Below, piece by piece: positions 1,809 through 6,199 of a stretch of 8,261 nt of DNA (position 1 is its first letter; the number at the start of each line of letters is the position of its first letter). The DNA is taken from NCBI GenBank assembly GCA_947259865.1, contig CAMYNZ010000305.1, positions 3,329-11,589 on the forward strand, read 5' to 3'. Position numbers and translations under genes: made by a program. This DNA is from an uncultured Desulfobacterales bacterium (GTDB lineage: Bacteria > Desulfobacterota > Desulfobacteria > Desulfobacterales > G020354645). The notes under the pieces were generated by a model that did no database searches, was not told the DNA's origin, and worked only from the letters and a program-made list of their open reading frames with translations.

Positions 1809-2042
1809 TTACGCAAAGGGATTATACCCCGGCTTCTTGTACAATTTGTGCGCATTGTCAAGAATGTCCGGTTTGTAGACTCTCTCGGCCCAATTTTGCG
1901 GGTCAACTTCTTCAATTGCTACCGAAACAGATTTTTCTTCACATTTTGCAATAGTGACCACATCCTTTACGATTTCCTCAACAAGCATTTTTTTTTGTTC
2001 TTCGGATCTGCCGGTATAAAGTTTAACGATGATATGCGGCAT
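1809..2042 (-). CDS. pptA: Small tautomerase, PptA/4-oxalocrotonate tautomerase family
   Basis: A 77-residue protein, the usual size for this family. It begins Met-Pro-His-Ile; after Met removal the N-terminal proline is the catalytic base of the tautomerase superfamily. The pattern of a beta strand, a helix with EEQKKMLVEEIVKDV, a second strand (VSVAIEEV) and the end KKPGYNPFA matches E. coli PptA (YdcE), also 77 residues. Family members convert enol and keto forms of small 2-oxo acids; the physiological substrate of PptA is unknown. The start has AGGAGG 6 bases before the ATG, overlapping the tandem stops of the upstream selenoprotein-type gene 12 bases away, so the two are cotranscribed. 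It is the last gene of the cluster. The symbol is by family resemblance only. Confidence 0.85.
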   Translation of the reverse strand: MPHIIVKLYTGRSEEQKKMLVEEIVKDVVTIAKCEEKSVSVAIEEVDPQNWAERVYKPDILDNAHKLYKKPGYNPFA

Positions 2043-2054
2043 TTTTTCCTCCTA

Positions 2055-2339
2055 TCAACAAGTTTTTTGCTTTTTCTTCCGGAGCCTAACCTCACGGAAT
2101 TGAGCCCGGATGCGCCCGGCCGAAACTGCCATTACGATTGACTGCAGTGCGCCGATTTCATCATCGGTAAGACCTTCTTCCTCGGCTACGCCGAGGTAAT
2201 ATTCCATTCAAGGATAACAGGCCACCGCCATTGCGGCGGCCATATGAATCATAAGCGTGGTCTTGGGCTCCAGTATTTCGTTATAACGGGCAGCATCGTA
2301 AAATTCGTTAAAACTGTTTTTCTGTTTGTCGGGTAGCAT
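2055..2339 (-). CDS. Carboxymuconolactone decarboxylase/AhpD-like selenoprotein with in-frame UGA
   Basis: Reading from ATG at 2337-2339, the frame stays open to TGA at 2055-2057 except for one TGA at 2208-2210, giving 94 residues. The N-terminal half ends MAVACYP and the next part begins MEYYLGVAEEEGLTDDEI, then VMAVSAGRIRAQF. This reads as one continuous CMD/AhpD-like protein in which the UGA takes the place of the second Cys of a CxxC motif (Cys41, position 44). AhpD-type proteins use this pair for thiol redox or peroxidase chemistry, and selenocysteine versions of AhpD-like proteins are known. A hairpin of SECIS form follows the UGA. The gene has AAAGGA upstream of its start, lies 4 bases after the HgcAB-like gene and 12 before the tautomerase. 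The alternative is a pseudogene or sequence error turning TGC/TGT into TGA, but the perfectly placed hairpin and intact frame on both sides argue against it. Confidence 0.82.
2180..2196 (-). promoter_or_regulatory. Bacterial SECIS-like hairpin for selenocysteine insertion
   Basis: On the minus strand CCTCGGC-GTA-GCCGAGG forms a perfect 7-bp stem with a 3-base loop. It starts 11 bases after the UGA at 2208-2210, so the apical loop is 18 bases downstream. Bacterial SECIS elements need a short stem-loop inside the coding sequence, about 16-37 bases from UGA to loop, with a G among the first two loop bases. All three hold here. A second short pairing, CCUU (2210-2213, overlapping the UGA) with AAGG (2173-2176), could close the base of the structure. 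Confidence 0.75.
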
Positions 2340-2343
2340 AGTT

Positions 2344-3489
2344 TTATCCTTTCGATAATGGGGATCCTGGCGAAATAACAGCAGTTAAATATAAGACATC
2401 AAGCAACCGGACCGGTTGTGCGTTAATCGCACCGCCCTGACATTGAACCAGACAGGCCCGGCAGGCGGTGCAGCTTTCCATGTGAGCAAAAACCGCCCGG
2501 TTGTCCGCATCAATTTTCCACACGGCCTGGGGGCAAATCTTTGCACAGCTGCGGCATCCGATACAGCAATCTCGGTCATAGATAAGCTGTCGGGTTCCAT
2601 TCAACAGTTCGGTACGAACACTTCCGGCAAAGGAGAGATTACCAATGGATCCTATTCCCAGACGCGCAAGCAAAGGATCCAGATCACTTCGCATGGTAGC
2701 GGCGATACCTCCGAGTTCTGTACCAAAAATGAGCAGCATTGTCATTGCTACAACTATATTCACCCGTAATATAGAAGAACCGGCCGGATCAAGTATTAGC
2801 GAACCGACCCAAAAAGAACCCAGTGCTATTTCCGGCAGGATTAGCTTCGCTAGACCGCGTTTGCCCGGCAGCCAGGGACAGGTAAGAAAGAAGAACAAAA
2901 AAGATGCCATACTGACCAGCAAAAAATTTAAAAGGAGATGGGGACTGAAAAACAGGAAACCCACAGCGCCGATGAAAATGATGGGAAAAAGGGTGCCCAG
3001 GGCCGGATCCAGTCTCTCTCGCCAATTAAAAAAGCTCGCCCGTCTAATTTCGTCGTCCCGGCGGTGACCGTCCCGGAGGTATTGGGGAATATCCCTTGCA
3101 CGCAGCGGTCCCCAGTATACGGACCAGCCGGTTTGCTGCTCCAGGGCCCTGGCTTTGATGCCGGGAGCACCCAGGGGCGGTAAAATCAATCTGCGATGGT
3201 CAACCCTCTCGGCAATGCCGCTGGTTTTAACGGCTGACACCACAGACCGGGTGTTAAACTCCTCACTCCCCGCTGCGCACCAGACATTGATTCCTTTGGA
3301 ATCGGCCACAAGCAGCCAGGCATCCAGGCCGCGCAATTTTTTTATCAAACGTCTGACCGTAAGATAGAAATTACAGGTCACCAGAACCGGGCTATTTGGC
3401 CCAGGGCTTCCAATGCGCTGCAGCCCTACAGTTATGGGGCAAGGAAATAGCCTGAAGAACATTGCCCATATATATTTTAGGGGATTCAT
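2344..3489 (-). CDS. HgcAB-like fusion protein: membrane corrinoid domain fused to 2x[4Fe-4S] ferredoxin
   Basis: A 381-residue protein. Residues about 20-150 match the corrinoid-binding domain of HgcA (mercury methylation), with GINVWCAAG at 66-74; Cys71 corresponds to the cap-helix cysteine that ligates cobalt in HgcA. Further HgcA-like blocks are HRRLILPPLGAPG (98-110) and GPLRARDIPQYL (127-138). About four membrane helices follow (roughly 162-182, 184-205, 213-233, 243-263). The C-terminus is HgcB-like: CxxCxxCxxxCP at Cys309/312/315/319 and CxxCxxCxxxC at Cys340/343/346/350. Canonical HgcA and HgcB are separate proteins. The Lys usual after the cap motif (WCAAGK) is Ser75 here, and HgcB's C-terminal cysteine pair is absent. 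It likely transfers a methyl group via a corrinoid reduced by the ferredoxin; mercury methylation should not be assumed. The start overlaps the upstream methyltransferase stop (ATGA). Confidence 0.85.
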   Translation of the reverse strand: MNPLKYIWAMFFRLFPCPITVGLQRIGSPGPNSPVLVTCNFYLTVRRLIKKLRGLDAWLLVADSKGINVWCAAGSEEFNTRSVVSAVKTSGIAERVDHRRLILPPLGAPGIKARALEQQTGWSVYWGPLRARDIPQYLRDGHRRDDEIRRASFFNWRERLDPALGTLFPIIFIGAVGFLFFSPHLLLNFLLVSMASFLFFFLTCPWLPGKRGLAKLILPEIALGSFWVGSLILDPAGSSILRVNIVVAMTMLLIFGTELGGIAATMRSDLDPLLARLGIGSIGNLSFAGSVRTELLNGTRQLIYDRDCCIGCRSCAKICPQAVWKIDADNRAVFAHMESCTACRACLVQCQGGAINAQPVRLLDVLYLTAVISPGSPLSKG

Positions 3490-4103
3490 GTCTTATTGAC
3501 TTGCGGCACGCCGCCCACCACCATGGCAAAGGTTCCGCCCTTGCTGCGGATTTCTTTTTTAACCTTAAAACCGGCATTATTCAGATCTGCCGGCAAATTA
3601 TCCAACGGACGGTTGGATGACAAGAGCTTTCGAACCGCCTTATGGGCAATGACTTCATCCGCAATTATAAGGATGCCGCCGGGTTTTAGCACCCGCTTTG
3701 AGTGCATCAGGGCAAAGTGTCTTTCATCGGCAGAAAGTTCGCTAAAAACAAGTGTAGAAACCACGGCATCGTAGGATGCAGACGGCAGGTTGTCCATCCC
3801 TTCAATCCCCATCTCTTTGATGGTGAGTTTGTTTTTGAGCCCTCCGTTTTTTACTCTTTCACGGGCCACTGCAACCATCGCCGGGTTGACATCAAAGGCT
3901 GTAATAGCTGCCCCCCTGGACAACAGCATTGTTGCCATTTCGCCGGTACCGCAACCAATTTCAAGGACCTGTGCATTTTCGGGAATTTCTCGGATCACGT
4001 TTTCCCTGACCGACTTTAGGTGTCCCTGACTTATTTTATTCATGCACCGATCATAGGACCGCGGTCTGTTTTCCAGCACCCTCATAAAAAGGTAACTGAA
4101 CAT
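3486..4103 (-). CDS. cpaM: Class I SAM-dependent methyltransferase, corrinoid-protein-associated type
   Basis: A 205-residue Rossmann methyltransferase. Motif I is VLEIGCGTG (47-55), the SAM-ribose acidic residue follows at Asp71 in ITAFDVNP, motif II/III includes YDAVVSTLVFSEL (111-123), and VLKPGGILIIADE (138-150) is the post-I strand region. The opening (MFSYLFMRVLENRPRSYD) and the EMGIEGMDNLP stretch are, from memory, characteristic of the family annotated as corrinoid protein-associated methyltransferase CpaM, found beside HgcAB-like fusions; the symbol rests on that recollection. Its stop overlaps the start of the HgcAB-like gene by 4 bases, so they are translationally coupled and presumably act together, perhaps supplying a methyl group to the corrinoid or modifying the product (inference). 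AAGGGA lies before the ATG. It has no membrane segment and is probably cytoplasmic. Confidence 0.82.
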   Translation of the reverse strand: MFSYLFMRVLENRPRSYDRCMNKISQGHLKSVRENVIREIPENAQVLEIGCGTGEMATMLLSRGAAITAFDVNPAMVAVARERVKNGGLKNKLTIKEMGIEGMDNLPSASYDAVVSTLVFSELSADERHFALMHSKRVLKPGGILIIADEVIAHKAVRKLLSSNRPLDNLPADLNNAGFKVKKEIRSKGGTFAMVVGGVPQVNKT

Positions 4104-4127: not shown

Positions 4128-4910
4128 TCAGTGCTTGCGTCCCATAATGATGATATGGCGGCCGACAAAAACGGCCTGGGGTGTTCCGAACTCATGCGGT
4201 TGCAGCCATTCAGTGACGGTTTGCGGTGCTTTCTTGACCAAACTCACTAAATGTTCAATGGTTTCCGGCGAACATTCCTGTCGCTCGGCCCACGATAAAA
4301 ATCCATGTCTTTTGATGATCTGTTCCGTGTGCGCTACTTTCAGCCCGGCGGTCTGGAACATGTTGACCCACTGTGCCTGGCTATAGGCCTGGTGGTGACT
4401 GGGATCTCGCAGCTTTTCGAAATTTTCCAGATAACGACCGGCTTTTTCATCTTCCGGCAATACATGATCCTGAACCAACAGTGTTCCGCCTGTCCTGAGT
4501 ACGCGGACGCTTTGCTTTACAAAACTAAAACAATCGGGGAAATGATGGGGCGCGATCCGGCAGGTGACCAGATCGAAAGTTTCGTCTTTAAAGGGCAGGT
4601 TCTCGGCATCAGCAAAATAGAAAGTTACATTTTTTATACCCTTATCGAGGATAAATGTCTGCGCCGCCTGCAGCATTTTCGGTGCAATGTCGGTTGCGAT
4701 CACCCGGGCAACATGGGGAGCAAATCTCAAGGCTGCATGCCCGCCGCCGCAGGCAACGTCCAGCACGATCCAGTGGGCCTGCGGTAATACAATATCAACC
4801 AGGCGAGTTAACTCCTCGCCTTTGGCAAGGGCCGCACCGGTAACATAACGTTGAGCGAATCGGTTAAAGCGGGTTTGGGACAAATCTTTTGAGCGGCTAT
4901 GAAGTGACAT
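4128..4910 (-). CDS. Class I SAM-dependent methyltransferase, UbiE/YcgJ-like
   Basis: A 260-residue protein with a complete SAM-binding fold: motif I VLDVACGGGHAA (49-60), acidic residue Asp74 in VIATDIAP, DAENLPF (101-107) at motif II, and VRVLRTGGTLLVQDH in the post-I region. This pattern is typical of Methyltransf_11/UbiE-like enzymes acting on small molecules. It lacks an obvious cysteine set of the ArsM arsenite methyltransferase type. AGGGGA stands 6 bases before the ATG at 4910. The gene is 24 bases upstream of the second methyltransferase and 16 bases downstream of the YdjM-like gene. Two different SAM methyltransferases in front of a corrinoid protein suggest sequential or alternative methylation steps (inference). 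The substrate is not evident. Confidence 0.8.
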   Translation of the reverse strand: MSLHSRSKDLSQTRFNRFAQRYVTGAALAKGEELTRLVDIVLPQAHWIVLDVACGGGHAALRFAPHVARVIATDIAPKMLQAAQTFILDKGIKNVTFYFADAENLPFKDETFDLVTCRIAPHHFPDCFSFVKQSVRVLRTGGTLLVQDHVLPEDEKAGRYLENFEKLRDPSHHQAYSQAQWVNMFQTAGLKVAHTEQIIKRHGFLSWAERQECSPETIEHLVSLVKKAPQTVTEWLQPHEFGTPQAVFVGRHIIIMGRKH

Positions 4911-4926: not shown

Positions 4927-5472
4927 TTAATGCCTTGACGCCACGCTGCGAATAACTGTTGAAATAACAGCGGTCAAGAATGCGGGCAAGCATATCCATA
5001 AAAGCTCACTTTTCATAACCGCATATCCCCATTTGCTAAAGAACGCTTTAATGCCGATGGGCGAAACCACAATCGGGGTCCATGGGAAAAAATATCTCGT
5101 ATTGCTGAAAGGTGCTAACAAAGCAATTCCTAAGCCGCCGTTGGTGAACGCATCCAGGATGCCGTGGCTGGCAGTCACCATGAAAAAGAAGAAGAAATAG
5201 AATAACCCTCTTCCAGAATAAAACGCTGCATTGCGAAAGAACACGGAAGTTACCAGGAGGCTCAAAATTAAAGCAAAAAAGGGCGAGTGGAAAAATCCTC
5301 TATGTCCTAAAAAATGGTGGTAGGGTATCCCAAAGGCAAAAGCGATTACATCCGCGTCGGCGATAATTGAACATCCAATGGAAAGTGCCCAAAAATGGTT
5401 TGGCACATCGCGGGGTGCGAATGCTATGCCGCCGGCAACGGCAACAGCTGCATGTGAAATTGCTGAAGGCAC
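4927..5472 (-). CDS. YdjM-like (DUF457) membrane-bound metal-dependent hydrolase
   Basis: A 181-residue membrane protein. The open frame extends upstream to 5655, but that part lies inside the preceding gene. GTG at 5470-5472 is the probable start: it has AGGGAG 6 bases upstream, follows the preceding stop by 31 bases, and gives the family N-terminus PSAISHAAVA. Histidine/aspartate clusters in order are SHAAVA (His7), DADVIAF (39-45), HHFLGHRGFFHS (52-63), SHGILDAFTNGG (102-113) and NTRYFFPWTP (124-133). These match the YdjM/DUF457 family, predicted membrane-embedded metal-dependent hydrolases, several of which are LexA-regulated in enterobacteria. Hydrophobic helices run between the motifs. 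The substrate is unknown. It sits between a DUF2238 membrane protein and the methyltransferases; its role there is not clear from sequence. Confidence 0.8.
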   Translation of the reverse strand: MPSAISHAAVAVAGGIAFAPRDVPNHFWALSIGCSIIADADVIAFAFGIPYHHFLGHRGFFHSPFFALILSLLVTSVFFRNAAFYSGRGLFYFFFFFMVTASHGILDAFTNGGLGIALLAPFSNTRYFFPWTPIVVSPIGIKAFFSKWGYAVMKSELLWICLPAFLTAVISTVIRSVASRH

Positions 5473-5503
5473 ACCTTGCTCCCTTTTCTTTATCCAATAT
5501 TGA

Positions 5504-6145
5504 TTACGAAATTCCCTTCCCAAGCTTCGCCATGGACCGGTCGTGGAAACCTGATAAGAGAGGCAACACAACTCCGGCGCCAACAAGGGCCAGGAGCATA
5601 TCCCATTGCGCATCCCAAATATCACCCTGGGAACCCAGAAAGGCTGTGCCAACATCAGATGCTACAAGTAAAGCCACCCACCACTCAAGGAGTTCCCAGA
5701 ACGCGGCAACCGCTAAAACGATACTAATGACAATAAAATAAAGCCAGCCTCCCCGGTGCAACGGTGTCTTTCGCAGCAGCACCTCCCGGATAATGAATGC
5801 CGGGAATACCCCAAGTGCTATATGCCCAACTCTATCATAGTGGTTACGGCCAAGTTCGAACACCTCTTTGGCCCAGTTCCCCAGTGGCGTTTGGGCGTAA
5901 GTGTAGTAACCGCCGTAAATCAAGATGAACATATGAAGAAAAACACAAAAATAAACCATGTGTGACATCGGAAATCGACGGTGGATTACGGTCAAAATTA
6001 AAATGCCTGCAAGACCAGGCCCGACCTCCAATAACCAACTTACCCGTCCGGCTGGCGGATCGACTACAGTAGCGAGGCACACTATCACTACAATGCCTAA
6101 AAGCACCAGTGGCAAGCGATAATATGAAAGTGGCACAGACGTCAT
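5504..6145 (-). CDS. DUF2238 (YjdF-like) integral membrane protein
   Basis: A 213-residue polytopic membrane protein. Family hallmarks are LGRNHYDRVGHIALGVFPAF (98-117) with a following RE-LLR, AFWELLEWW (148-156) and GSQGDIWDAQWDM (171-183), separated by hydrophobic helices (about six). The frame can be extended to a TTG at 6199, but no ribosome binding site precedes it and it overlaps a possible -35 box. ATG at 6143-6145 has AGG 8 bases upstream and gives a normal first helix. DUF2238 proteins (E. coli YjdF) are inner-membrane proteins of unknown function; the conserved His, Asp and Glu residues at membrane edges suggest metal or ion handling, but that is inference. It is the first gene of the run ending at the tautomerase. 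Confidence 0.8.
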   Translation of the reverse strand: MTSVPLSYYRLPLVLLGIVVIVCLATVVDPPAGRVSWLLEVGPGLAGILILTVIHRRFPMSHMVYFCVFLHMFILIYGGYYTYAQTPLGNWAKEVFELGRNHYDRVGHIALGVFPAFIIREVLLRKTPLHRGGWLYFIVISIVLAVAAFWELLEWWVALLVASDVGTAFLGSQGDIWDAQWDMLLALVGAGVVLPLLSGFHDRSMAKLGKGIS

Positions 6146-6170
6146 AGCACAACCTGAATTACATTTCGGT

Positions 6171-6199
6171 TTTCTATTTTTTTCGAACTTTAAACTCAA
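6171..6199 (-). promoter_or_regulatory. Possible sigma-70 promoter of the methyltransferase cluster
   Basis: On the minus strand TTGAGT (6194-6199) and TAGAAA (6171-6176) are separated by 17 bases. Each matches 4 of 6 consensus positions. The predicted start near 6164 would leave a leader of about 20 bases, enough for the AGG before the ATG at 6145. The match is weak, but it is the best candidate upstream of the seven-gene run. Confidence 0.3.

Follow-up and report, generated by a model that had tools for sequence, protein, structure and literature searches.

The CMD-domain gene and its surroundings

The window, by which we mean the whole stretch of 8,261 nucleotides analysed here, carries a small CMD-domain gene whose frame on the minus strand, from 2339 to 2055, contains a single internal TGA (2210-2208) and ends at a second TGA (2057-2055). 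The gene resides in a tight block extending from 4910 to 1809, in the order methyltransferase, CpaM, HgcAB-like fusion, CMD selenoprotein and tautomerase. Here 24 nt separate the methyltransferase gene from cpaM, cpaM overlaps the gene of the fusion by 4 nt, and the two remaining junctions are gaps of 4 and 12 nt. The following features were assigned:

1809..2042, minus strand: tautomerase (PF01361, profile match), 12 nt downstream of the CMD gene and its probable operon partner
2055..2339, minus strand: CMD-domain selenoprotein gene, 94 codons and a TGA stop, with the motif C41-x-x-U44
2055..2057, minus strand: terminal TGA, most likely the true stop
2180..2196, minus strand: bacterial SECIS-like hairpin, 7-bp stem and GUA loop (from fold, relatives, covariation and codon-draw test)
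2208..2210, minus strand: in-frame TGA, codon 44, read as selenocysteine (recurs in related loci; Cys in homologues)
2344..3489, minus strand: HgcAB-like fusion protein (NF043039, 377 bits, cut-off 285), ending 4 nt before the CMD start
2347..2352, minus strand: AAAGGA, probably the ribosome binding site of the CMD gene, read from the sequence, 7 nt before the ATG
3486..4103, minus strand: CpaM, corrinoid protein-associated methyltransferase (NF043040, 221 bits, cut-off 180)
4128..4910, minus strand: SAM-dependent methyltransferase, no class assigned (profile matches), 24 nt upstream of cpaM

The frame and the position of its internal TGA agree with the sequence-only reading, which had also regarded both halves as one protein preceded by a ribosome binding site of its own. 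Read through the TGA, the product matches the CMD domain PF02627 with 36.1 bits (Pfam gathering score 23) and thus belongs to this family, and AAAGGA, the probable binding site, ends 7 nt before the ATG. The same reading had anticipated that ordinary gene calling would miss or split the gene; indeed, 18 of the 120 database matches listed comprise only the 3' half after the TGA, starting at Met45. The fold after the terminal TGA is not notable (z 0.43), and the C-terminal tails of the CMD relatives differ from one another. At 2052-2057, a TAG directly follows the stop TGA; in P0003, the closest relative, this position is occupied by Cys.

Recurrence of the TGA and the hairpin behind it

Besides the window, TGA occupies the codon-44 column in 29 related loci from 28 genomes (L001-L005 and 24 further loci, including the fusion gene L036 and the partial loci L030 and L038). 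Where the site is covered and is not TGA, all loci have Cys except L034, which has CGA. The in-frame UGA is thus aligned with a conserved Cys of homologues, as expected for a bacterial selenoprotein. Among the near-full-length database proteins listed (P0003-P0101, n=99), counted from protein entries, column 44 is Cys in 45, which bears out the earlier proposal that the TGA replaces the second Cys of a CxxC pair; 53 have W and one lacks the motif. The W most likely represents TGA translated under code 4, the window itself having a database entry of this kind (P0002). In L034 (G232, 1591-1644) the CGA stands in place of the Sec TGA while the hairpin is retained with 7 pairs, possibly a decaying Sec gene or an assembly error. 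Two genomes, G100 and G212, each harbour the gene in both a Cys and a Sec form (L026/L039 and L027/L040), and G594 has two TGA copies. A tree of 133 rows, 82 with Sec and 51 with Cys (the CGA row and rows of short length excluded, W at column 44 scored as Sec by inference from P0002), requires at least six Sec/Cys changes, two of them forced by starred branches; it is built on few columns, is weakly supported and has long branches that meet.

The machinery for selenocysteine is widespread in the relatives' genomes. Both selA and selD score over the cut-off in 22 of 23 genomes other than the host's, 22 of these 23 carrying the TGA; the exceptions are G255 for selA and G206 for selD, and the selD match itself includes an in-frame TGA in 21 of the 23. 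Matches to selB exceed the cut-off in four of six relatives' genomes and reach E 1e-50 in 20 of the 21 TGA genomes of a 291-genome sample; G212, which bears a TGA copy, has no selB match at this level. For tRNA-Sec, 15 of 20 genomes have a candidate over the cut-off, while in G004, G005, G126, G255 and G269, all TGA-bearing, none of the up to 127 candidates scored per genome reached it.

In the window, 11 unpaired nucleotides separate the TGA from the hairpin CCUCGGC-GUA-GCCGAGG, whose arms (2196-2190 and 2186-2180) enclose the loop 2189-2187 (GTA), so that the perfect 7-bp stem with a G-first three-base loop is found as previously described. Each of the three stretches folded has the hairpin in its minimum-energy structure, with z values against shuffles of -2.01, -1.68 and -3.08, and therefore the fold energy by itself is only moderately unusual. 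Stems of 7 bp or more occur in 30/30 distinct TGA rows and in 0/9 distinct Cys rows (33 and 11 before removal of duplicates). In the TGA rows the stem starts 11 to 14 positions (0-based) after the T of the TGA, and the loop comprises 3-5 bases and opens with G in every one of the 30; a stem-loop at a short distance from the UGA and a G in its apical loop, both typical of bacterial selenoproteins, are thus constant features of these loci. Across the 30 rows, 96.2% of the 210 cells of the seven-pair, three-base-loop structure pair, and the covariation score of 0.361 (0.247 shuffled) was not attained in any of 500 shuffles. Double changes occur at four of the seven stem pairs, a level reached by 18 of the 500.

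As the stem also encodes protein, synonymous codons were drawn 20,000 times per row from local usage with the protein held constant. The complete set of seven pairs is found in 25 of the 30 TGA rows against 2.64 expected, the rows being related by descent and not independent trials; L018, L022, L033, L036 and L079 have shifted stems or larger loops instead of the seven-pair form. For the window, P is 0.027. Together with the recurrence, the loop G and the covariation, this excess agrees with the SECIS-like hairpin that the sequence-only reading had suggested.

Three other explanations of the TGA were considered. It is very improbable that the hairpin is a by-product of Gly-Val-Ala coding, the UGA being suppressed at a low level or terminating at residue 43. 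The protein alone does make the stem fairly likely in several rows (P up to 0.40): nine of ten FGVAKE-type rows have P 0.16-0.40, so that the support from those rows alone is weak, and a further point against the selenocysteine reading is that the Cys proteins P0068, P0070, P0073 and P0099, known from protein entries, retain the GVA peptide. However, the LSDAKE/LSDARE rows L025, L028 and L032 keep all seven pairs at P 0.0016-0.0047, and the stem is missing from the nine distinct Cys rows, among them L027, where the GVA peptide is kept. A pseudogene or a sequencing error, by which a Cys or Trp codon was mutated or misread to TGA and the gene broken, would likewise surprise us greatly. One in-frame stop does look like gene breakage, and the CGA of L034 would fit this picture, but the TGA recurs in 29 loci with a co-varying hairpin, and in four pairs pN is 0.12-0.17 against a pS of 0.66-0.93 in both halves of the frame, with synonymous change near saturation.

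Virtually no likelihood is left for a reassignment of UGA to Trp or Gly (codes 4 or 25), which would make residue 44 one of these. The 53 W entries speak in its favour at face value; against it, TGA terminates the HATPase, CpaM, MT2 and HIT frames in the window (frames that by construction contain no inner TGA), and genome-wide reassignment is therefore unsupported. Moreover, TGG or GGN appears at the column in none of the loci whose DNA was read, and the other relatives have Cys there. The best explanation, very probably the correct one and in line with the functional CxxU redox protein inferred in the sequence-only reading, is a CMD-fold CxxU selenoprotein that receives Sec via the SelB route and the hairpin and would serve as a thiol/selenol redox partner. 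Judged from the comparison of the relatives, the UGA would be decoded through SelB and tRNA-Sec, directed by the hairpin that follows after 11 nt.

The predicted protein and its known relatives

The gene is predicted to encode a 94-residue, all-helical protein of the CMD fold whose redox pair would consist of Cys41 and selenocysteine 44. A structure model calculated with Cys at position 44 has a pLDDT of 92.3, and a profile search of the PDB matched 3bey (E 2e-8). The CxxU pair is likely to be located at the start of a helix, as suggested by the model with Cys in place of Sec.

In the AhpD peroxidase, a proton-relay His is located four residues after the second Cys; we take this residue to be His137, the H137F mutant being named in the title of 1lw1. 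The corresponding position is His in 3bey, 5dik and 7y4r and Tyr48 in the window protein, and this Tyr is nearly invariant in A1. The protein is therefore unlikely to be a peroxidase that uses the AhpD proton relay, and a role in thiol/selenol redox chemistry or metal(loid) binding appears to be the better guess; most likely, the protein acts as a thiol/selenol-disulfide redox partner. AhpD itself (PDB 1gu9, 1knc) has the CMD fold and the spacing of the redox pair in common with the window protein, to which it is 13% identical. Thus, of the earlier designation 'CMD/AhpD-like', the CMD part stands, whereas 'AhpD-like' is a loose term.

CMD-domain CxxU selenoproteins are already known, and the window gene is a further member. 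As far as the consulted parts of the sources go, they have been described since 2005 from a Sargasso Sea set (PMC1088965), as 'AhpD-like 2' of pfam02627 (PMC2398784), as 'CMD-like protein' in a review (PMC13188914) and as a 'distant AhpD homolog' listed for Geobacter (PMC1794560). The first three share PF02627, the CxxU motif and a single Sec with the window protein, a likeness by description and not by sequence; the HgcAB-like neighbourhood is not described for them in those parts. The 'distant AhpD homolog' family of GSU3128 (NF041047), from what is given there, is likewise a small CMD-type CxxU selenoprotein, but the window protein, scoring 34.4 bits where 110 are required, lies outside it. 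The C-terminal CMD parts of two fusion selenoproteins also align with most of the window protein: that of MduS (NF045649, profile 236-315 of 338) at 53.3 bits against a cut-off of 380, and that of ArsM_AhpD_UU (NF041537, profile 265-336 of 345) at 42.5 bits against 510. The window protein belongs to neither family; it is stand-alone and has no methyltransferase domain. One of the TGA loci, L036 (721-1752), is a known ArsM_AhpD_UU fusion (520 bits, over the cut-off of 510) with CxxU; in-frame TGAs occur in both of its domains, and a hairpin lies after the CxxU codon.

Gene neighbourhood and possible role

The HgcAB-like/CpaM neighbourhood of the CMD gene was absent from the sequence-only reading. 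Against the HgcA model, the HgcAB-like gene scores 169.6, below the cut-off of 275. The HgcA-like stretch of the fusion reads NVWCAAGS; the HgcA motif is NVWCAAGK. The closest HgcAB-like relative found (L047/L102) is 69.5% identical, and its cpaM, HgcAB-like and tautomerase genes, the last 80% identical to that of the window, follow in the same order, the last two without a CMD gene in between. In nine HgcAB-like regions of other genomes (L102-L109 and L116, some of them short on one side), no CMD gene was matched (best E 1.8), and therefore the CMD/HgcAB-like linkage rests on one locus. Judged by the HgcAB-like set compared, the CMD selenoprotein gene seems to have been added in the lineage of the window. 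Elsewhere in the window, at 4927-5655 and 5504-6199, a YdjM-like ORF overlaps a DUF2238 ORF by 152 nt; the mechanical start of the YdjM-like ORF is probably too early.

A second type of neighbour is the arsenite methyltransferase ArsM, which is near (four) or fused to (one) the CMD gene in five of the 29 TGA loci, the flanks being of differing length. In L004, L097 and L098, an ArsR-type regulator is followed by ArsM (NF008823, over the cut-off) and then by the TGA gene, at a distance of roughly 100-140 nt in L097 and L098 and of about 1 kb in L004, where a further methyltransferase intervenes. In L099, some 75 nt lie between the last matched CMD base and the start of ArsM. The ArsM proteins of L004, L097 and L098 are close (77-83% identical, measured against L098), and that of L099 is separate (52%). 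In addition, ArsM is found about 1 kb downstream of the Cys copy L027. By tblastn, the remaining TGA loci have no ArsM above 30% identity within their flanks, often 1.5 kb or less; L083 has a methyltransferase match at 26%. No description of a CMD gene adjacent to arsM or hgcA was found in the portions of the literature consulted, and PMC12013261 and PMC9879109, both cited in the review PMC13188914, may contain one.

Judging by the spacing, the five genes of the block, with two methyltransferases (one of them CpaM), the HgcAB-like fusion and the tautomerase, are probably co-expressed with the CMD gene as one of them, and the protein might contribute redox chemistry, of thiols or of metal(loid)s, that accompanies methylation. 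A role of the CMD selenoprotein in metal(loid) methylation is plausible, the ArsM neighbourhood being a lead and not proof. At even odds, however, the selenoprotein is a disulfide reductase of general use or a stress protein, whose neighbours are accidental and which has no tie to metal(loid) methylation. This would be in line with ArsM occurring at so few of the TGA loci, with the HgcAB-like regions elsewhere that lack a CMD gene, and with the operon L102, where the tautomerase follows directly; it is at odds with the short distances to ArsM in L097, L098 and L099 (roughly 75-140 nt), with ArsM upstream in L004 and downstream of the Cys copy of L027, and with the fusion in L036. More tentatively, and with a rather low probability, it might be speculated that the CxxU CMD protein serves metal(loid) methyltransferases as a portable, selenium-dependent partner. 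It would be fused to ArsM in certain bacteria, encoded beside ArsM in the ArsR-ArsM cassettes of others, and inserted into an HgcAB-like/CpaM operon in the window, where it would reduce the thiol-bound metal(loid) or pass it on to corrinoid-dependent methylation.

That the gene very probably encodes a small selenocysteine redox protein of a familiar kind is the more ordinary aspect of this locus; the less ordinary one is that such genes are sometimes located beside arsenic-methylating genes or, in the window, mercury-methylation-like genes. If the ArsM/HgcAB-like link is functional, it would point to a testable component of arsenic or mercury chemistry that depends on selenium. In the arsenic cassettes, a second, related CMD gene lies near the Sec-type one (L004:6361-6621, L097:4267-4527, L098:8437-8691 and L099:3880-4185), with a CIPC motif in L004 and L097.
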